A stretch of 64,000 nt of DNA, taken from positions 124,001 to 188,000 of the forward strand of contig VEFU01000001.1 of assembly GCA_007679095.1 (NCBI GenBank), read 5' to 3'. This DNA comes from Paenibacillus bovis. GTDB taxonomy: Bacteria > Bacillota > Bacilli > Bacillales > Bacillaceae_C. The notes under the pieces were generated by a model. It worked only from the letters and a program-made list of their open reading frames with translations, was not told where the DNA came from and ran no database searches. Positions 34,622 to 46,209 of this stretch are shown here, in pieces (the stretch's first letter is position 1; every line of letters begins with the position of its first letter). A program made the position numbers and the translations under genes.

Positions 34622-36161
34622 GCTGATCACCCTTTATATTTCGTTTATGAATTATTTGTTTTCTTAACCAGGACGCATCATTTTCGTGAGGGTAGTCTTG
34701 ACGATAGTGACCGCCTCTACTTTCCGTTCGTTGTATTGCGGATTCGGTAATTAATGATGCAGTAATGAGCATAAATATCTTTGTTAATTCATCGGTTGTA
34801 TAGTCTTCTAAATTTGCATCGAGCAATTCTGTGATATGGAAGTTATCCAACCACTGCTTTTGTTTTAATAGCCCTACTTTTGTTCGAATAATACCAACGT
34901 TATCCATCATCGAATCTTTTATTTCGTGCAGTTTCGGTAATGCGACTTCTCCTGCTTCTTTGTAAAAATTAAAATCTAGATTTATATTTTCCTTTACATG
35001 ATTAGTATTCAACCAGTTTGCTAATCTTTTACCAACAAACAAGCCTTCCAATAGAGAATTACTAGCGAGGCGATTTGCACCATGAACACCAGTACAAGCT
35101 ACCTCTCCAATAGCATATAAACCTTGTAAACTACTACTACCTATAAGGTCTGTTTTAATACCACCCATTGAAAAGTGACTGCCTGGTGCCACTGGTATTA
35201 ATTTTTCTTGTATGTCCACACCATGTTTTTGGCATAGCGCAGTAATGGTTGGGAAACGAGAAGAGAAATTTTCAACATCAGAGATGTCTAGAAACACTTC
35301 TTCCCCATTCCGTAAATATTCATAAATGGTTTGCGACACTATATGCCTTGGAGCTAAATCTCCTAATGGATGAACACCTTCCATGATGAACTTCCCATAT
35401 TTGGTAATTAACCTTGCTCCTTCTCCACGCACTGCTTCAGAAATAAGTCCTCGAGTTTTTCCATTTGTGTACAACAATGTTGGATGAAATTGAATAAATT
35501 CCATATCTGCTATCTCAGCACCTGCACGGTAAGCAAGCGCTATTCCATCACCCGTCACCGTTTCGGCATTTGACGTATAGCGATACAGTTGACCACATCC
35601 CCCTGTAGCAATAACAATATGGTTTGCGTAAAAAGTTTCTACTTTATGATTTGCATACTTACCTTTAACTCCGTAACATCTTCCTTTTGAAGTTAATAGT
35701 TCGAATACGAAGATATTTTCAATAATATTTATATTTGGTTTTGTTTGAGAGGCTAGAAAATCCATTACTGTTTTTCCTGTTGCATCTCCTCCACCATGAA
35801 CAATCCGTTTTTCACTATGTGCTCCTTCCATACCAAGCAGCAATTCCCCATCATTATTTTGATCAAATTTACATCCTTCCTGGTGCAGATGATAAATAAG
35901 CGACGGTGCTGCCTTTGTTAGAGCTTGAACTGCATCAAGATCATTATGAAATCTACCAGCTTCCAGTGTATCTATAACATGTTTATGGGGACTGTCACTT
36001 TTGCTTATTGCAGCTGCAATTCCTCCTTGAGCTAAATAGGAGTTACCATTCTCTAGCTTTGACTTTGTGAGGATAATCACATTCAAATCATGACGAAGCT
36101 CTTTTGCAAGTTGCAAAGCAGCAATCCCGCTTCCAATAATAATTACATCTGCTTGCTTCAT
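34590..36161 (-). CDS. nadB: L-aspartate oxidase
   Basis: FAD enzyme that oxidises aspartate to iminoaspartate, first step of de novo NAD synthesis. 523 residues from the ATG at 36161 (GGGAGG 6 nt upstream); the longer frame to 36269 reads into the promoter region. The N-terminal FAD motif is VIIIGSGIAALQLA, followed by LAQGGIAAA (about 40), the active-site area MEGAHSEKRIVHGGGDATGK and GHS-type segment SHFSMGGI. First gene of nadBCA. Confidence 0.94.
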   Translation of the reverse strand: MKQADVIIIGSGIAALQLAKELRHDLNVIILTKSKLENGNSYLAQGGIAAAISKSDSPHKHVIDTLEAGRFHNDLDAVQALTKAAPSLIYHLHQEGCKFDQNNDGELLLGMEGAHSEKRIVHGGGDATGKTVMDFLASQTKPNINIIENIFVFELLTSKGRCYGVKGKYANHKVETFYANHIVIATGGCGQLYRYTSNAETVTGDGIALAYRAGAEIADMEFIQFHPTLLYTNGKTRGLISEAVRGEGARLITKYGKFIMEGVHPLGDLAPRHIVSQTIYEYLRNGEEVFLDISDVENFSSRFPTITALCQKHGVDIQEKLIPVAPGSHFSMGGIKTDLIGSSSLQGLYAIGEVACTGVHGANRLASNSLLEGLFVGKRLANWLNTNHVKENINLDFNFYKEAGEVALPKLHEIKDSMMDNVGIIRTKVGLLKQKQWLDNFHITELLDANLEDYTTDELTKIFMLITASLITESAIQRTESRGGHYRQDYPHENDASWLRKQIIHKRNIKGDQLEQIEIKAAT

Positions 36162-37539: not shown

Positions 37540-37968
37540 TCAATGGTGGTGATCATGCCCTAGTAGCTTCTCTTCTTCATCTCGGCTATGGATTTCATTT
37601 ACAATAAGCATGCCTGTAAAACACTCTAATACTTCTTTTGTTACACCTTCCGATTTTAAGATTCCTCTGATTCTCTTTGCTAGTATCCGTAGTAAATCGT
37701 GGTCTCTTGTTAACTTAGCAATCGTTTCACTCATATCTGGGTCTTTTTCCACTACTTCTTTGTAAAATCCATCTTCCTCAGAGTCGGCATGGGTAATAAC
37801 CCGTAATTCCCAGTGTTCTACTAGTCCATCTGCTACTTCTGCACTTTCTTTTTCCTTTTTTTCATCCACTAACTTATACAATAAATCTGTTAGATGCTTA
37901 GCTTCTCGAAAGGAACCTTCGTGAATGGCTCGATGTGCATCTAACTTTCTTAATGATGGTCCTGACAT
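37540..37968 (-). CDS. hemerythrin-like (HHE domain) protein
   Basis: 142 residues, helical, with histidines spaced as in HHE/hemerythrin domains: DAHRAIHEGSF near 10-20, EHWELRVITHADSEEDGFY near 60-80, RDHDLL near 95, and NEIHSRDEEEKLL near 125, plus a short His tail. Such proteins bind a di-iron centre and are linked to oxygen or nitric-oxide chemistry. It follows the nar operon, beyond a hairpin, which suggests a role in nitrate respiration or nitrosative stress (inference). ATG at 37968 has GGGAGAG 7 nt upstream. Confidence 0.7.
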   Translation of the reverse strand: MSGPSLRKLDAHRAIHEGSFREAKHLTDLLYKLVDEKKEKESAEVADGLVEHWELRVITHADSEEDGFYKEVVEKDPDMSETIAKLTRDHDLLRILAKRIRGILKSEGVTKEVLECFTGMLIVNEIHSRDEEEKLLGHDHHH

Positions 37969-37994
37969 AATTTTCCTCTCTCCCTTATAATAAA

Positions 37995-38031
37995 AGATGT
38001 CTACAAGAGGCAATTGCCCCCTAAGACATCT
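37995..38031 (-). terminator. terminator between narI and the hemerythrin-like gene
   Basis: Outer stem AGATGTCT/AGACATCT encloses an inner GAGGCAATTGCCCC palindrome; TTTTATTATAA follows on the minus strand. Only about 25 bp separate it from the next start codon, so it may act as an attenuator as well as a terminator. Confidence 0.7.
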
Positions 38032-38064: not shown

Positions 38065-38772
38065 TTATTTAACTCGTCTTGCTATTTGTTGGGCATTCAT
38101 TTTACGGAAAATAATGTAATTTCGGGTTAAGTACTCCAATGGTAGGCTCCAAACATGGACAAGCCTTGTAAATGGCCATACAGCAAACAGTGCAAAAGCA
38201 AGAATCACGTGAAGCTGAAAACCAAATGGAGCTCCCACCATTAATTCAGGCTGTGGGTTAAAAAGCAACAATCCGCGAAACCATGGACTAATCGTAGTTC
38301 GATAATCAAAGTCACCACCAGATGCCGCATAGCCCACCGTTGCTGTAAAACCAACTAGGACAACCGCTCCTAATAAAACTAATGTAAACATTGCATTGAA
38401 GCTACTGTTATTTCGGATTCTCCTATGTCCACTTCTACGTAAAAATAGCAAGAAACCTCCTATAACAGTGGCAACACCTGCTGCTCCACCTAACCAAAGT
38501 GCTCCCATATGATATAAATGATCCGAAACACCAACCGTATCATAGATGATTTTCGGTATCATAATACCAGCAACATGACCAAAGAACACAAAGACAATTC
38601 CCCAATGAAACAGAAGGCTTCCCCATTTCAATTGCCTTTTTTCCAAAAACTCACTTGATTGTGCTGACCAACCAAATTGATCCACATTATAACGAATAAT
38701 ATGACCAATGATAAAAATCGTGGATGTAAGATACGGAAAGACAGCCCATAGGAAAGTATCAATAAAACTCAT
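38065..38772 (-). CDS. narI: respiratory nitrate reductase gamma subunit (cytochrome b)
   Basis: Membrane subunit that oxidises menaquinol and passes electrons to NarH. 235 residues, five helices. Haem-ligand histidines lie in helices 2 and 5 (LLFHWGIVFVFFGHVAG near 55-70, and LHVILAFALFAVWPFTRLVHVW near 190-210). It is last of narGHJI and 21 bp after narJ. Confidence 0.93.
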   Translation of the reverse strand: MSFIDTFLWAVFPYLTSTIFIIGHIIRYNVDQFGWSAQSSEFLEKRQLKWGSLLFHWGIVFVFFGHVAGIMIPKIIYDTVGVSDHLYHMGALWLGGAAGVATVIGGFLLFLRRSGHRRIRNNSSFNAMFTLVLLGAVVLVGFTATVGYAASGGDFDYRTTISPWFRGLLLFNPQPELMVGAPFGFQLHVILAFALFAVWPFTRLVHVWSLPLEYLTRNYIIFRKMNAQQIARRVK

Positions 38773-38793: not shown

Positions 38794-39324
38794 TCATGAA
38801 ACTTTCTCATTTTCTATGTCTTTTTCAATGCAATTTATACATGCTTCTAGCAAAAGCCGATATGGACTATCAATCCCTTGCAGTTCTAGATACAAATTCC
38901 TTATCGACCTTAAATGTAATCGAAGGAGCTTATCCGCATCTTGATCCGAAATAATAGAAGCGCATTCTAGTACAAGCGGCAAATAATCTGGCAGTTCCTC
39001 TGATGTAAACTCCATACCAAACTCATACATTTGATTCCTAAGTTCTACTAGCACCGGGCCACGATCACGGTTATCTTTAAATACCGAATAAGTTAAATAC
39101 AACGTTGTTTTATCATAAAAATCAAATGTATAAACATAGTTCTCACATAACTCATCATAAGAAGTATTCGTTACATATCGAATAAATTGTTGGAGTGGAA
39201 ATCGAATCTCGTCATCAGGAAACTCCTCGTGCATATTTAAATCCTGCACGAGGGGAATCCATTCCTGTTCGGGATATTGCAGTAAGGTGGATATTAGACT
39301 ATAGGCCTTCTGCTTTTGATTCAT
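38794..39324 (-). CDS. narJ: nitrate reductase assembly chaperone
   Basis: Cytoplasmic chaperone that helps insert the molybdenum cofactor into NarG and hold NarGH before membrane docking. 176 residues, all-helical, with YPEQEWIPL and YVYTFDFYDKTTLYLTYSVFKDNRDRG near 60-90 typical of the NarJ/TorD group. It overlaps narH by 26 bp. Confidence 0.9.
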   Translation of the reverse strand: MNQKQKAYSLISTLLQYPEQEWIPLVQDLNMHEEFPDDEIRFPLQQFIRYVTNTSYDELCENYVYTFDFYDKTTLYLTYSVFKDNRDRGPVLVELRNQMYEFGMEFTSEELPDYLPLVLECASIISDQDADKLLRLHLRSIRNLYLELQGIDSPYRLLLEACINCIEKDIENEKVS

Positions 39325-40867
39325 CTAATTCCCTCCAATACTTTTCACCATAGTACTCCAAAGGTGATTCTGGTGGATGAGAACCAACTGCACATGTTTC
39401 ACAGCTTCCACCACCACTACTATTTCCGAATTCCTCAAATCCAGCCATTCCTCTTTCCGTAAACATATCTCCAGACAACTCTTTATGAGAAGGTGGGATT
39501 ACATATCGATCAGAATACTTTGCTATTGCGTTCAATCGATACATTTCCTGTACAAGATCCTCCGTTAACCCCGATGCCTCTAATATGCTAGGGTCTGTCG
39601 GTTTATCCAAATTGAGTTGGCGCATATAACTTCTCATCGCAACTAACTTACGAAGGACATTTTTTATCACTTCCGTATCACCTGCAGAAAATAGATTCGC
39701 TAAATACTCAATTGGTATTCTCATTTGCTCAATGGTTGGGAAAACAACACGAGGGTCAATCGCGTCCCCACTACCACCAAATGCGTTCATAAATGGACTC
39801 AGTGGTGGCACATACCATACCATTGGTAACGTACGATATTCTGGATGAAGTGGTAGGGCAATTTTTTGTTCTACAGCTAGCTTATATACTGGTGAATCTT
39901 GTGCAGCTGTAATCCAGTCATCCGCAATCCCTTGTTTTCTTGCTTCAGCTATTACTTCCGGGTCATGTGGATCAAGGAAAATATCTAACTGTGCCTCATA
40001 TGCATCCTTGTCATCTTGAACAGATGCAGCAGCTTCCACTTTATCTGCATCATACAAAACTAACCCAATATAGCGTAACCGTCCTACACATGTTTCGGAG
40101 CATATTGTTGGTTGTCCTGTTTCAATTCTCGGAAAACAGAAAGTACATTTTTCTGCCTTGTTCGTTTTCCAGTTGAAATACACCTTTTTATATGGACATC
40201 CCGACATACAAAAACGCCAGCTTCGACAAGCATCCTGGTCTACGAGAACGATCCCATCTTCATCACGTTTATATATCGCCCCTGATGGACAAGACGCTAG
40301 ACAAGATGGATTGATGCAATGCTCACAAATTCTTGGCAAGTACATCATAAACGTTTCTTCAAACTCAAATTTCACTTGTTCTTCAAGGCCCTTCATGTTC
40401 GGATCATCTTTACCAGTCTTATAAACACCGGCAAGATCATCCTCCCAGTTTGGTCCCCAAACGATTTCCATATATTCTCCAGTTAATTGAGATTTCGGGC
40501 GGGCCACTGGCTGATAATCACCAGCAGGACTATTAATTAGGTTCTCATATTCATAATCCCAAGGTTCATAGTAATCATCGATTGGTGCAAGATCTGGGTT
40601 ATAAAAAATATTCAATAATTTGCTCGCACGGCCACCTGCTTTTAGCTCTAGTTTGCCGTTTCGCATTTCCCAGCCGCCTTTTCTTGTATCTTGGTCTTCC
40701 CAGCGTTTCGGGTACCCAACTCCCGGTTTCGTCTCCACATTATTCCAATACATGTACTCTGCACCGGGTCTGTTAGTCCATGTCGTTTTACATGTCACAC
40801 TACATGTATGGCAGCCAATACATTTATCGAGGTTCATTACCATGCCGTATTGTGCTTTAATTCTCAA
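39299..40867 (-). CDS. narH: respiratory nitrate reductase beta subunit (Fe-S)
   Basis: Electron-transfer subunit, 522 residues, with four cysteine groups: CIGCHTCSVTC near 16, CEHCINPSCLASCP near 183, CRSWRFCMSGCP near 215 and CTFC...CSETC near 240-260. The tryptophan in CRSWRFC replaces a cysteine, giving a 3Fe-4S cluster as known for NarH. Overlaps narG by 11 bp and narJ by 26 bp. Confidence 0.95.
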   Translation of the reverse strand: MRIKAQYGMVMNLDKCIGCHTCSVTCKTTWTNRPGAEYMYWNNVETKPGVGYPKRWEDQDTRKGGWEMRNGKLELKAGGRASKLLNIFYNPDLAPIDDYYEPWDYEYENLINSPAGDYQPVARPKSQLTGEYMEIVWGPNWEDDLAGVYKTGKDDPNMKGLEEQVKFEFEETFMMYLPRICEHCINPSCLASCPSGAIYKRDEDGIVLVDQDACRSWRFCMSGCPYKKVYFNWKTNKAEKCTFCFPRIETGQPTICSETCVGRLRYIGLVLYDADKVEAAASVQDDKDAYEAQLDIFLDPHDPEVIAEARKQGIADDWITAAQDSPVYKLAVEQKIALPLHPEYRTLPMVWYVPPLSPFMNAFGGSGDAIDPRVVFPTIEQMRIPIEYLANLFSAGDTEVIKNVLRKLVAMRSYMRQLNLDKPTDPSILEASGLTEDLVQEMYRLNAIAKYSDRYVIPPSHKELSGDMFTERGMAGFEEFGNSSGGGSCETCAVGSHPPESPLEYYGEKYWRELDESKAEGL

Positions 40868-43800
40868 GCCACTTCACCTCATCCCTATCCATTTTTCGAA
40901 TTACAACTTGTTCATCACGCTGATTTCCTGTTGGTCCATAATAGTTAAATCCATAGCTAAGCTGCGCATAACCGCCGATCATTTGAGTCGGCTTCATATG
41001 AATTCTAGTCGGGCTGTTAAATGTACCACCACGTTGCTTCGTAATAGGTGAGCCAGGTACGTTAATATAACGTTCTTGTACATGGTACATAAAAGCTACT
41101 CCCCTCGGCATTCTGTGACTAACAACTGTCCTAGCAACTACCACACCATTGCGGTTATACATTTCAATCCAATCATTATCGTCTAGCCCTACGGATGCTG
41201 CATCTTCATTATTAATCCACACGTGTGGTCCACCTCTAAATAATGTCAACATCGGTAATGTATCACCATACGTACTGTGATAAGACCATTTAAAGTGAGG
41301 TGTTAAATACTTCAATGTTATTTCCTGACCACCCATAACTGGACGATTATCCTTATCGTAAAAGGTCATCTTTTTCAATGGAGCTTTGAATGTAGGCAAT
41401 TCTTCCCCAAACTCCGTCATTAAATCATGGTCAATATAAAAATGCTGTCTTCCTGTTAATGTTCTAAAAGGAATGAGTCTTTCAATATTTTGAGTGAATG
41501 GCGAATAGCGCCTATGCCCTTTCTGAATTCCTGTAAAAATAGGTGTCGTTATAACCTTCTTCGGCTGAGTTGTAATATCATGGAATGTAATATGCTCTCC
41601 AGCTCGATCACTGGATAAGTCTTTTAACTCCTGACCAGTTTGTTTTTCAACAACATCCCAAGCTTTCATAGCAAGACTGCCATTTGTTGCACTAGATAAA
41701 GTTAACATGGCCTCGGCAACATTTTTGTCTGAATATATATCAGGACAATCTTGGTATATCTCTGAATGATTAGATGGACCGAGCATTTCTAATAACTTTT
41801 TGTATTCATCCTCTGAATTAAAACTGATCCCATGTGCCCCAACCTGTTTACCTGCATTAGGTCCAAGTGAGATAAACTTGTCATAGATTTTCGTATAATC
41901 ACGTTCAACTATATTCAAATTAGGTAAATTTCTTCCAGGAACAGGCTCTTCTTTCCCATTCTTCCAGTCAGGGACACGTCCATATGCTTGGGCGAGTTCA
42001 CCTGGGGAATCATGACCAAGCGGAGTCGAAACTACATCCTGAACTGGTTCAGGTAAATAATGTTTCGCCATTAATGAAAAGCGTTTCGCCAAATTCCTAA
42101 ATGTTTCCCAGTCTGATTTTGCTTCCCATGGTGGTGCAATTGCAGGGTTAAACGGATGAATGAACGGGTGCATATCCGTACTCGAAATATCGGACTTTTC
42201 ATACCAAGTTGCTGCCGGCAAAATAATATCGGAATATAAACCGGTACTACACATTCTAAAATCCATACTTACTAGTAAATCTAATTTCCCTTCTGGAATA
42301 TCTTCTACCCAATTAATTTCTTCTGTTGCATCTTGGTCATTTTCTTCACTAAGGTTACCGTGGTGTGTCCCAAGTAAATGCTTTAAGAAATACTCATGTC
42401 CTTTTGCCGAACTACCAATTAAATTCGCTCTCCATACAAAGAGGACTTTAGGGAAATTGCTTTTATTTTCAGGGTTTTCGACTGCAAATTTAAGATCACC
42501 ATTCTTCAGCTGCTGTACGACATTTTCCTTTAATTTCTCTATGGAACCACCAGCTTCTTTTGCAAGTTCAATACTGTTTTTATTGAATTGGGGATAACTT
42601 GGTAACCACCCTAATCGAGCTGCTAAAATATTGTAATCACCAGGATGGTTGTACAAGCTCTTATCCACAAGTGGTGACTTTAAATTTTCAATACGTTGAT
42701 CTTCATAACGCCATTGTTCCGTTGCAAAGTAGAAAAAGCTTGTTCCATTCATTAGTCGTGGCGGTCCACCCCAGTCTTTCGCCATCGCAATCGTACCCCA
42801 GCCTTCAAGTGGACGTACCTTTTCCTGACCAACATAGTGAGCCCAACCGCCCCCATTTTTCCCTTCACAGCCTGTTAGCATAACAAGGTTTAAAATGGCA
42901 CGATAAATATTGTCAGCATGATACCACTGATTAATTCCTGATCCCATAATAATCATCGATCTACCTTTGGAATCTATCGCATTTTGTGCAAATTCCCTTG
43001 CAATTTGAGCCACTTTATCTTTTTCCACACCTGTATGTTTTTGTTGCCATGCTGGTGTATATGGGATGTCATCTTCATAACTTTGTGGATAATCCCCAGG
43101 AAGTCCACGATTCACAGCACAATTCGCCATCATTAAATCGAAGACGGTTGTGATATAAGTAGTTACGCCATTAATGGAGATTTCCTTCACAGGTAACCCT
43201 CTTTTTAAAACACCTTCTTGTTCTTCACCAAAGTATGGGAATAGCCCCATAACAACCTTATCTTCTTCCCCTAATAGTGATAGTTGAGGATCAATATCTC
43301 CCAATCCGTTGTCACGGTCTTCTAGCTTTAAGTTCCAATTAGCTCCTTCTTCCCAGCGATGACCTATCGTTCCATTTGGTACTGCAAACTGTTTCGTATT
43401 TTTATCAAATAAGACTGGTTTCCATTCTGCATTGTTCACTTCCATACCTAAATCACTTGCACGCAGAAATTTATCACCAACATATTGGCCATCCTTTTCT
43501 TTCAACGTAATAAAGAACGGCATATCTGTATATGTCTTTATATAATCATTAAAGAAATCAACCTGTTGATCGACATAAAATTCTTTCAAAATAACATGTG
43601 TCATCGCCATAGCAAGGGCTGCATCCATTCCAACCTTCACAGGTAACCAATTGTCAGCAAACTTCACATACTCCGCATAGTCTGGTGCAACAGCTACGAC
43701 CTTTGTTCCTCTATATCTAGATTCCACATAAAAATGCGAATCTGGTGTTCGAGTTTGCGGTATATTCGAACCCCAAGCAATAATGTAACTAGAGTTATAC

Positions 43801-44537
43801 CAATCAGAGCTCTCTGGAACATCTGTCTGATCACCCCAAATTTGAGGGGAAGCATTTGGTAAATCCGCATACCAATCATAAAAGCTTAACAAGGAGCCTC
43901 CTAATAAACTTAAAAATCTCCCTCCTCCAGCGTAACTCACCATCGACATGGCCGGTATTGGAGAAAAACCAAATACACGGTCAGGTCCATATTCCTGAAT
44001 AGTATGAATGAGCGACGCACAAATGAGGGTGTACATTTCATCCCAATTGGCACGGACAAAACCACCCTTTCCACGTGATGCTTTAAATTCTTTTGCCTTC
44101 GCCTCATCCTCTGCGATACTTTTCCAAGCTAATACAGGATCCTTTGTTGCCTCTAAAGCTTCTCTCCACAATTTAAGTAGTGAACCACGTACATAAGGGT
44201 ATCTAATTCTTAGAGGACTATATGTATACCAAGAAAATGTTGCACCCCGCTGACATCCACGTGGTTCATATTCAGGCATATCAGGTCCTGTTGAAGGGTA
44301 GTCTGTTTGTTGTGTCTCCCATGTAATAATTCCGTCCTTTACATGTACCTTCCAACTACATGAACCTGTGCAATTAACTCCATGAGTTGTTCGCACTACC
44401 TTATCATGTTGCCACCGACGACGGTAAATTTTTTCTGATTCACGGCTACGTGGCTGAGTTTCGATATGATTATTATCCTTCACTGTTTGACCAAAAAACT
44501 TCAATTTACTCCAAAATGGAGAAGAGTTATTTGCCAT
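40857..44537 (-). CDS. narG: respiratory nitrate reductase alpha subunit (Mo)
   Basis: Catalytic subunit reducing nitrate to nitrite with a bis-MGD molybdenum cofactor; membrane-bound on the cytoplasmic side. 1226 residues from the ATG at 44537 (AAAGGGAG 7 nt upstream). The FS0 Fe-S ligands are seen in HGVNCTGSCSW and a later GCQRGATFSWY. YNSSYIIAWGSN near 260 is the usual Asp/Asn cofactor region, and the C-terminus carries the Mo-binding beta-barrel. No TAT signal. Lies 66 bp after narK in the same direction. Confidence 0.96.
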   Translation of the reverse strand: MANNSSPFWSKLKFFGQTVKDNNHIETQPRSRESEKIYRRRWQHDKVVRTTHGVNCTGSCSWKVHVKDGIITWETQQTDYPSTGPDMPEYEPRGCQRGATFSWYTYSPLRIRYPYVRGSLLKLWREALEATKDPVLAWKSIAEDEAKAKEFKASRGKGGFVRANWDEMYTLICASLIHTIQEYGPDRVFGFSPIPAMSMVSYAGGGRFLSLLGGSLLSFYDWYADLPNASPQIWGDQTDVPESSDWYNSSYIIAWGSNIPQTRTPDSHFYVESRYRGTKVVAVAPDYAEYVKFADNWLPVKVGMDAALAMAMTHVILKEFYVDQQVDFFNDYIKTYTDMPFFITLKEKDGQYVGDKFLRASDLGMEVNNAEWKPVLFDKNTKQFAVPNGTIGHRWEEGANWNLKLEDRDNGLGDIDPQLSLLGEEDKVVMGLFPYFGEEQEGVLKRGLPVKEISINGVTTYITTVFDLMMANCAVNRGLPGDYPQSYEDDIPYTPAWQQKHTGVEKDKVAQIAREFAQNAIDSKGRSMIIMGSGINQWYHADNIYRAILNLVMLTGCEGKNGGGWAHYVGQEKVRPLEGWGTIAMAKDWGGPPRLMNGTSFFYFATEQWRYEDQRIENLKSPLVDKSLYNHPGDYNILAARLGWLPSYPQFNKNSIELAKEAGGSIEKLKENVVQQLKNGDLKFAVENPENKSNFPKVLFVWRANLIGSSAKGHEYFLKHLLGTHHGNLSEENDQDATEEINWVEDIPEGKLDLLVSMDFRMCSTGLYSDIILPAATWYEKSDISSTDMHPFIHPFNPAIAPPWEAKSDWETFRNLAKRFSLMAKHYLPEPVQDVVSTPLGHDSPGELAQAYGRVPDWKNGKEEPVPGRNLPNLNIVERDYTKIYDKFISLGPNAGKQVGAHGISFNSEDEYKKLLEMLGPSNHSEIYQDCPDIYSDKNVAEAMLTLSSATNGSLAMKAWDVVEKQTGQELKDLSSDRAGEHITFHDITTQPKKVITTPIFTGIQKGHRRYSPFTQNIERLIPFRTLTGRQHFYIDHDLMTEFGEELPTFKAPLKKMTFYDKDNRPVMGGQEITLKYLTPHFKWSYHSTYGDTLPMLTLFRGGPHVWINNEDAASVGLDDNDWIEMYNRNGVVVARTVVSHRMPRGVAFMYHVQERYINVPGSPITKQRGGTFNSPTRIHMKPTQMIGGYAQLSYGFNYYGPTGNQRDEQVVIRKMDRDEVKWLEN

Positions 44538-44603: not shown

Positions 44604-46103
44604 CTAATCATTCTCATTCGGCAATACGGTAAATAAACCAGCATAGTACTGAGTATCACCGACTTCATTTTTTACGGGACTTATTGTTAACCATTGATGA
44701 TAAATTTCCCCGTTCTTACGCTTATTCCATACTTCACCTTTCCAAAAGCCCTTATCTTTAATACTTGCAAACATTTTTTCGTAAAAGTCCTTACCATGTT
44801 TACCTGATTGTAATTTTTTCGGTGTCTCTCCTATTACCTCATCAGGGGTGTACCCTGTGACATTGGTAAACGCCTTATTAACCCGAACTATTACACCATC
44901 TATATTTGTCAACATTACTCCTGTTTCTGTATGTTCAATAACGTTATCAGCAACGAAGAGTTTATCTTGGTGATACATCCAGAAAACTAATATTAAACTA
45001 GCGAGTGAAAACTGGGACAATGCCATAAAACCGATGGCGTAGTGACCAGTAAAATTGAATAACGTTGTTAAAATAAGTGGTGGGAAAAATCCGCCAAGCC
45101 CACCCATCATCGCAACAATCCCATTCACAATCCCTGCTTGATTGGAGAAATACATTGGAACTAACTTGAATATCGTTCCATTTCCAATACCAGAACAAAC
45201 TGCAACAGATAGACAACCTACTGTGTAAATTACTAGTGATGGAGTAAAGGAAAGTAAAATTCCAGAGACTGTTAAACCAGCAAAAACGAGTACCAAAATT
45301 TTATAGGGATTAAATTTATCTCCTAGCCAACCACCAACTGGGCGCAAAATGGTTGCAAGCACAATAAAACCTGCCGTTCGCATACCAGCATCCACTGCCT
45401 CTAACCCAAAATGATTAACGAGGAAATTTGGAAGATATACGGTGAAAGCTACAAATGAACCAAAGCAAATAAAATAAAATAGACTTAAAAACCACAATTT
45501 TTGGCTTTTATATACACTTTTAATTTGCTTGAAGAATGGTTTCTTTACTTTCGGTTCATTACGATCACCAAAAATAAAATTTAATAATGCAAATAACGCT
45601 AGTAAAATAATGTAGAGCAGGATGGTTGTTCTCCATCCAAACTTTTCTGCCAATACTGGAGCAGCAAAGCTGGTTAAGGCTGTACCTAAATTACCCGCAC
45701 CATAAATTCCGTTCACAAAACCATGCTTTTCCTTTGGGTAATATTTAGGTAAGGAGGTAACTCCAATGGAAAATACGGCACCACCAATACCTAAAAGCAA
45801 TCCACCAAGAATTAACCCCATCATGGAATCGGCAATACTGATAAAATAAACAGGGAGCAATAAGATAAGAAAGCTAATAAAAAACAAATATCTAGCCCCT
45901 AAGGAATTTGTCCAGAAACCAATCGGAACTCGAAGAATAGAACCGAGAATAACTGGAACAGCAGTTACCCAGGATATTTGACTAGCTGTTAGAGGAATGT
46001 CTTTAGATATAAATGGCATTAATGAGGATAGAATTACCCACACCATGAAGCCAATCACTAAACTACTAGTTTGTAGTGTTAATTGCACACCACCTCGATT
46101 CAT
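44604..46103 (-). CDS. narK: NarK-type nitrate/nitrite transporter fused to a PAS domain
   Basis: 499 residues. Residues 1-380 form a twelve-helix MFS transporter with NarK features (MVWVILSSLMPF near 20 and GIGGAVFSIGVTSLPKYYP near 120). Residues about 385-499 are a PAS domain (EHTETGVMLTNIDGVIVRVN, then GYTPDEVIGETPKKL and the GEVWNKRKNG segment). The ordinary NarK of B. subtilis is about 395 residues, without this part. The PAS may sense redox, oxygen or nitrate and gate transport, or signal; unknown. ATG at 46103 has AAGGAGG 9 nt upstream; the longer frame lies in the upstream gap. No FNR box was seen upstream. Confidence 0.85.
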   Translation of the reverse strand: MNRGGVQLTLQTSSLVIGFMVWVILSSLMPFISKDIPLTASQISWVTAVPVILGSILRVPIGFWTNSLGARYLFFISFLILLLPVYFISIADSMMGLILGGLLLGIGGAVFSIGVTSLPKYYPKEKHGFVNGIYGAGNLGTALTSFAAPVLAEKFGWRTTILLYIILLALFALLNFIFGDRNEPKVKKPFFKQIKSVYKSQKLWFLSLFYFICFGSFVAFTVYLPNFLVNHFGLEAVDAGMRTAGFIVLATILRPVGGWLGDKFNPYKILVLVFAGLTVSGILLSFTPSLVIYTVGCLSVAVCSGIGNGTIFKLVPMYFSNQAGIVNGIVAMMGGLGGFFPPLILTTLFNFTGHYAIGFMALSQFSLASLILVFWMYHQDKLFVADNVIEHTETGVMLTNIDGVIVRVNKAFTNVTGYTPDEVIGETPKKLQSGKHGKDFYEKMFASIKDKGFWKGEVWNKRKNGEIYHQWLTISPVKNEVGDTQYYAGLFTVLPNEND

Positions 46104-46173
46104 GCACGTACTCCTCCTTTTTTTTCCTATTTCCTTACCATTCCACTTTTTCTTTAAATCATTCCAAAACAAA

Positions 46174-46209
46174 AAAATAACTCGAGGGAATTTTCCCTCG
46201 AGTTATTTA
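46174..46209 (-). terminator. terminator of the siderophore uptake operon
   Basis: Perfect palindrome AATAACTCGAGGGAA / TTCCCTCGAGTTATT that overlaps the stop codon of the ATPase gene, with TTTTTTTGTTTT on the minus strand afterwards. It also insulates narK. Confidence 0.92.

Follow-up and report, generated by a model that had tools for sequence, protein, structure and literature searches.

The closest described relatives of the transporter studied here are NarK and NarU of Escherichia coli, members of the NNP family of the MFS that have the same fold and the same nitrate-site residues. To our knowledge, the solved chains of these two proteins (466-475 residues) contain no PAS domain, unlike the protein described below. 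Oxygen inhibition of nitrate uptake has been reported for NarK2 of Mycobacterium tuberculosis and for E. coli; inactivation of respiratory nitrate transporters by oxygen is described there as a general feature that works via the redox state and not through O2 itself, and the mechanism by which oxygen inactivates NarK2 is stated to be unknown (PMC3445494).

The solved PAS domains most closely related in sequence to the one described here belong to two FAD redox sensors. PAS1 of NifL from Azotobacter vinelandii (2GJ3) is related to it in sequence as well as in fold and shares the pocket Trp and Asn with the NarK-PAS family, and PAS-A of MmoS (3EWK) is related in sequence and shares the pocket Trp, Asn and His. 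The FAD redox PAS domains of NifL and MmoS steer signalling proteins, whereas the output of NarK-PAS would be a transporter. Fusions of the same general class, MFS transporters with a C-terminal PAS domain, are mentioned in a 2023 review that cites two 2019 papers, including Willson et al. 2019, and the word NarK is absent from the review's text (PMC10710835). NreABC, a system for sensing O2 and nitrate, ties nitrate respiration to O2 as the NarK-PAS hypothesis would, but it is a two-component control with a GAF protein, and the nar cluster studied here has no ORFs for such a system.

Our literature search for NarK-PAS and other transporter-PAS fusions, judged by titles and the beginnings of abstracts, found no paper on NarK-PAS. 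A 2012 paper on two Bacillus denitrifiers gives narK genes of 1500 and 1503 bp, lengths that fit the fused gene, and the accessible portion of that paper does not mention a PAS domain (PMC3475470). We found a fused NarK (L111) in bataviensis, a species of that paper.

The narK-PAS gene and its nar locus

We analyzed a stretch of 64,000 nucleotides from Paenibacillus bovis (contig VEFU01000001.1, positions 124,001 to 188,000), which we call the window. We observed the following features in its nar locus:

46175-46208, minus strand: strong terminator-like hairpin, 3' of the upstream ABC-transporter gene, leaving ~70 nt before narK
44604-46103, minus strand: narK-PAS gene, 499 aa (ORF and Pfam domains; ATG at 46103 with GGAGGAG upstream)
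40857-44537, minus strand: narG (TIGR01580, 1868 bits against a cut-off of 1084)
39299-40867, minus strand: narH (TIGR01660, above cut-off)
38794-39324, minus strand: narJ (TIGR00684, above cut-off)
38065-38772, minus strand: narI (TIGR00351, above cut-off)
37540-38013, minus strand: hemerythrin-like (HHE) ORF after narI (Pfam Hemerythrin, E 1.4e-05, 26.0 bits against a cut-off of 25.3)

The original prediction described a NarK-type transporter with a C-terminal PAS domain at the head of a nar cluster, and we confirmed this description. The ORF is in frame and has Pfam matches to MFS_1 (residues 15-340, E 1.4e-44) and, in the tail, to PAS_9 (residues 394-490, E 2.3e-16) and PAS (residues 387-487, E 6.4e-10), and narG, narH, narJ and narI follow downstream on the same strand. 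We took the ATG at 46103, which has GGAGGAG just 5' of it, as the start codon, while the mechanical ORF extends beyond it to a TTG at 46172. The gap from narK to narG is 66 nt. A promoter scan of the ~70 nt between the hairpin and narK recognized no sigma-70-like site.

Our searches yielded 104 fused rows, which include 4 duplicates and represent 100 distinct fused proteins. In 37 of the 104 rows there is a narG within 7 kb of the fused narK, and in the other 67 none was found in flanks of limited length. At several loci, the fused narK adjoins a different NarG-like enzyme of ~725 residues. A hemerythrin-like (HHE) gene is located near the fused narK in 24 of the 37 rows with narG within 7 kb (including L060, L062, L064 and L068). 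In the Neobacillus-type loci L086, L098, L109 and L113, the fused narK is followed by a distant second NarK-like MFS gene and a PAS protein encoded on the opposite strand; the one such protein that we scanned (L098) combines MHYT and histidine-kinase domains with two PAS domains.

The transporter part

Within the narK-PAS gene, the parts of the protein and the site discussed below are placed as follows:

44976-46103, minus strand: MFS (NarK/NNP) part, approximately residues 1-376 (Pfam, model, nitrate-site alignment)
44931-45041, minus strand: unbroken predicted helix, residues 355-391, from TM12 to the PAS N-cap (AlphaFold2 model)
44631-44945, minus strand: PAS domain, by kinship of the NifL/MmoS FAD type, residues 387-491 (Pfam, sequence search; fold search with the L045 orthologue)
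44769-44771, minus strand: codon TTT for Phe445, where the family has the FAD-determinant Trp (alignment of 100 fused proteins)

The NCBIfam NarK model TIGR00886 matches the window protein with 219.2 bits (E 8.4e-65), which misses its cut-off of 311.7 bits. At E <= 0.001, the only sequence relatives of the transporter with solved structures are nitrite extrusion proteins 1 and 2 / NarK. In a fold search with the window protein, ranks 1-9 are all NarK chains or 4iu8 (nitrite extrusion protein 2), and the fold alignments with the E. coli NarK / NarU chains have 20-22% identity. The nitrate-binding residues of E. coli NarK are known from the literature (PMC4432589). Residues R58, F111, N138, Y210, F214 and R254 of the window protein correspond to R89, F147, N175, Y263, F267 and R305 of E. 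coli NarK, and all six are invariant in the fused proteins that we aligned (64/64). By sequence and fold, the MFS part looks like a competent NarK that would transport nitrate or nitrite.

A PAS domain related to FAD redox sensors

By sequence, the nearest solved relatives of the window PAS are MmoS 3EWK and NifL 2GJ3. When a profile of 36 PAS domains was compared with solved structures, MmoS scored 4.6e-36, NifL 2.3e-27 and the best LOV domain 1.3e-19. With a model of the PAS domain of the Trp-bearing L045 orthologue from Lederbergia panacisoli (pLDDT 89), the first fold by E-value is the FAD PAS of NifL (TM-score 0.89-0.90, 33% identity), while the Colwellia PAS 3LYX is level with it at a TM-score of 0.90, and MmoS is absent from the best 50 rows of this search. 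NCBIfam matched the PAS region best to the phosphodiesterase DibA (4e-39), followed by NifL (2e-19) and a LOV family (1e-15). By kinship, the PAS domain of the window family is of the FAD redox type.

Residues 379-499 of the window protein include no cysteine, which rules out a LOV adduct in its PAS domain and also an NreB-like Fe-S cluster, since the Fe-S PAS of the NreB type requires cluster-binding cysteines. Single cysteines turn up at seven positions in the 104 fused rows, the commonest being 397 (8 rows).

Xing et al. 2023 name the Falpha Trp as the primary determinant of FAD and give His and Asn a secondary part; in their data, Trp is present in only 53% of the cluster for which NifL or MmoS is listed first (PMC10468136). 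In Aer, the Falpha Trp stacks on the adenine of FAD (PMC9668731). We looked at these sites in the 100 distinct fused proteins, most of which come from matches ranked by their likeness to the window protein, so that counts over them describe the near family. The FAD-site Trp is present in 99 of them, and the sole exception is the window protein, which has Phe445 at this place, encoded by TTT, two bases away from TGG. At the FAD-site Asn, all 99 proteins with a letter there have N (N460 in the window), and at the place of the His, 67 have H, including the window protein (H436), and 31 have Q. Because the adenine-stacking Trp is a Phe in the window copy, FAD binding by the window protein is less certain than for its relatives. 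Phe445 is in effect a natural test of the FAD cofactor site. General decay of the window PAS is not supported, as it departs from the family at 2 of 28 near-invariant PAS positions, where the family range is 0-3.

The junction between transporter and PAS

The AlphaFold2 model of the whole window protein, made as a monomer with no ligand, has a mean pLDDT of 87. We read twelve membrane helices in the transporter of this model, the last of which continues as the unbroken helix into the PAS N-cap. With twelve helices and the usual MFS topology, the PAS domain is presumably cytoplasmic. The linker (residues 366-399) has no gap in any of the distinct fused proteins (100/100). In the model, the transporter and the PAS domain look mechanically joined.

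Distribution and conservation of the fusion

We took the breadth of the fusion from genome surveys and not from the 100 proteins. A NarK-like sequence was matched at E <= 1e-60 in 123 of 397 genomes sampled evenly across the order. The fused copy is present in 66 of the 397 (80 rows) and intact in 65 (79 rows), where the matches extend to E ~1e-62, below which no fused row is expected; a copy with an in-frame stop (G221) was counted as not intact and one broken into two frames (G388) was left out. In a sample of the class (398 genomes), we found the fusion in 61 genomes outside the order (62 rows), and it is full-length in 59 of them (60 rows), with G491 and G603, which are without the N-terminal part, counted as not full length. 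Among the 16 genomes of the genus, NarK was matched in 9, each of which has a fused copy.

In a scan of named genomes, the best 80 of 540 loci are all full-length matches and 78 of them have an uninterrupted fused ORF (the exceptions are L055 and L074); these best 80 have no bearing on the frequency of unfused forms. They include Lederbergia, Mesobacillus, Neobacillus, Virgibacillus, Paenibacillus, Cohnella and Brevibacillus, as well as Bacillus haynesii and Bacillus paralicheniformis, which we take to be members of the B. licheniformis group. A plasmid search at E <= 1e-60 returned one record (Niallia taxi), in which nothing is annotated where the match lies. The original prediction had allowed that the fusion might be an isolated assembly artefact, and we reject this given the intact fusion in 65/397 order genomes and 78/80 named-genome loci and its spread across the order and the class.

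Interrupted copies were also observed. In Virgibacillus subterraneus (L055, 6983-8506), the PAS of the interrupted narK is in a separate ORF, the copy at G388:C6:270849-272310 is interrupted by stops and a frame change, and L180 (the same as L074), which counts among the 100 distinct proteins, is interrupted by a stop within its PAS domain. L074 is filed as Chryseobacterium sp. ISL-80, an organism name that looks wrong, as its contig is equal in length to G221:C31 from a genome of the order studied here.

For 15 close pairs, chosen by similarity with dS > 0.05 and not saturated, dN/dS was 0.03-0.19 in the PAS domain and 0.02-0.12 in the MFS part. By these ratios, the PAS domain is under purifying selection.

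Probable loss of the PAS domain and a second nar cluster

We built a tree of the MFS parts from 99 of 133 rows, dropping 34 near-copies and giving no state to L055, whose PAS is in a separate frame. The fused and unfused states need 7 changes on this tree, of which well-supported branches force at least 6. Small unfused groups nest inside a mostly fused clade. The tree comes with a warning of long branches, and we read gain versus loss from the nesting, which the tree alone does not give. This pattern suggests one early gain followed by repeated loss of the PAS domain, including from the second NarK of this genome.

That second NarK is encoded in another nar cluster of the same genome (L131, G000:C376:23000-38906), with an unfused narK and narG-, narH- and narI-like ORFs. 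This cluster also has NreA-, NreB- and NreC-like genes, the first of which scored 133.9 bits with the NreA model and missed the cut-off of 175, and a 175-aa hemerythrin-like gene. The ORFs after the unfused narK resemble moeA and moaA. In three other genomes of the genus (G009, G012 and G001), a fused narK is found in a neighborhood that matches L131.

Outside NarK, the most similar PAS domains that we saw in the genus are 44-47% identical to the NarK PAS (L137 6086-7813, L138 4543-6267, L140 4050-5762 and L141 4323-6407). By Pfam, L137 and L141 are PAS-GGDEF-EAL proteins, and L138 matches DibA. The PAS-GGDEF-EAL proteins may be kin of the source of the NarK PAS. All four PAS proteins are encoded in a similar gene neighborhood.

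How the PAS domain may act

According to the original prediction, the PAS domain could let redox, oxygen or nitrate state gate nitrate uptake. We consider redox or oxygen gating a reasonable hypothesis because the conserved PAS is of the FAD redox type, while nothing that we saw points to nitrate as the signal. The reading that we prefer, to which we give an even chance of being right, is that NarK-PAS is a respiratory nitrate/nitrite transporter set by a cytoplasmic redox PAS of the NifL/MmoS type with an FAD cofactor. During aerobic respiration, the flavin would be oxidized and the PAS, acting on the C-terminal helix bundle through the unbroken TM12-PAS helix, would hold the transporter closed; when electrons accumulate, the flavin would become reduced and the transporter would admit nitrate. 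A flavin switch of this kind would be faster than any transcriptional response. What we observed is the anatomy; that the domain binds FAD, responds to redox state, closes the transporter when oxidized and is coupled to it mechanically is our inference.

Several results count against a flavin gate. The window protein, alone among the 100, has Phe at the FAD-determinant Trp, the PAS domain has probably been lost repeatedly, including from the second NarK of this genome, DibA outscores NifL in NCBIfam, and 3LYX equals NifL by TM-score in the fold search. We know of no PAS domain in M. tuberculosis NarK2 or in the E. coli NarKs, and if NarK2 indeed lacks one, then a PAS domain is neither required for oxygen inhibition of nitrate uptake nor its general cause.

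PAS domains commonly dimerize and can be mere dimerization modules. The domain in NarK-PAS may be a module for dimerization or docking, through which NarK assembles or is held to a partner such as a reductase or another transporter, and its flavin site would then be structural or vestigial. The window protein fits this explanation in that it keeps the fold-bearing residues (with the 2/28 departures given above) and not the Trp, but across the family few positions are as conserved as the FAD-pocket residues. It is also unlikely that NarGHI is a fixed partner, given that narG was found within 7 kb in 37/104 rows and that several loci have the ~725-residue NarG-like enzyme beside the fused narK. 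We regard this explanation as unlikely, though deserving of serious consideration.

The unfused NarKs nested inside the fused clade, with the 7 changes that they require, and the paralogue without PAS in the same genome would both be expected if the PAS domain were a tail that mattered little for transport and could be dispensed with. The purifying selection on the PAS domain, the class-wide spread of the fusion and the indel-free linker speak against such a tail, and we consider it improbable. That the PAS senses some other signal than flavin redox (nitrate, nitrite, NO, heme-bound O2 or a metabolite) is improbable: Gln at the His place in 31/100 and Phe445 in the window suggest that ligand preference may vary, and the DibA-type match would allow another cofactor, but the closest solved relatives are FAD PAS domains and, without a cysteine, the window PAS can form neither a LOV adduct nor an NreB-like Fe-S cluster.

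In its widest form, the preferred reading of an FAD-dependent redox gate describes a class-wide family of respiratory nitrate transporters, each with its own flavin redox switch, in which redox state would gate nitrate entry directly on the transporter. The window species, with Phe in place of Trp, would then be a natural variant whose cofactor affinity or set point is altered. We hold this form tentatively, at somewhat less than an even chance. If it is true, it would explain at the molecular level, at least for Bacilli, why nitrate uptake stops in the presence of oxygen, as was observed decades ago. It would also provide an example of a redox PAS that gates a secondary transporter, which would be useful for engineering. 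The fused NarKs and their natural relatives without PAS, one of them in the same genome, offer a clean comparison for the role of the PAS domain.

FNR boxes upstream of narK

The original prediction noted no canonical FNR box upstream of narK or narG and proposed that sensing by the protein might partly replace transcriptional control. The first part is borne out, as our scan for TGTGA-N6-TCACA with at most 2 mismatches found no box upstream of the window narK or narG. The proposal itself did not hold up. FNR boxes with at least 9/10 matches are present in the ~300 nt upstream of 39/98 fused and 13/29 unfused narK genes (Fisher p 0.67), where the 300 nt are counted from the alignment start and not from annotated start codons, and the 29 unfused genes include L055 and NarKs down to 33% identity. 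In mononucleotide shuffles of the upstream regions, ~1% would be expected to have such a box. Given that the boxes are similarly frequent before fused and unfused narK, the PAS domain is no substitute for FNR, and we reject this role as a general rule. In the Lederbergia galactosidilytica orthologue (L046), a perfect FNR box and the PAS domain occur together.

The genome also encodes a Crp/Fnr-type protein (L127) that ends in CENCPIEIC, a C-terminal cysteine cluster that we take to resemble that of Bacillus Fnr; in NCBIfam, it reached no family model at cut-off. The only exact TGTGA-N6-TCACA palindrome in the window is at 36066-36081, inside nadB, and is probably there by chance.
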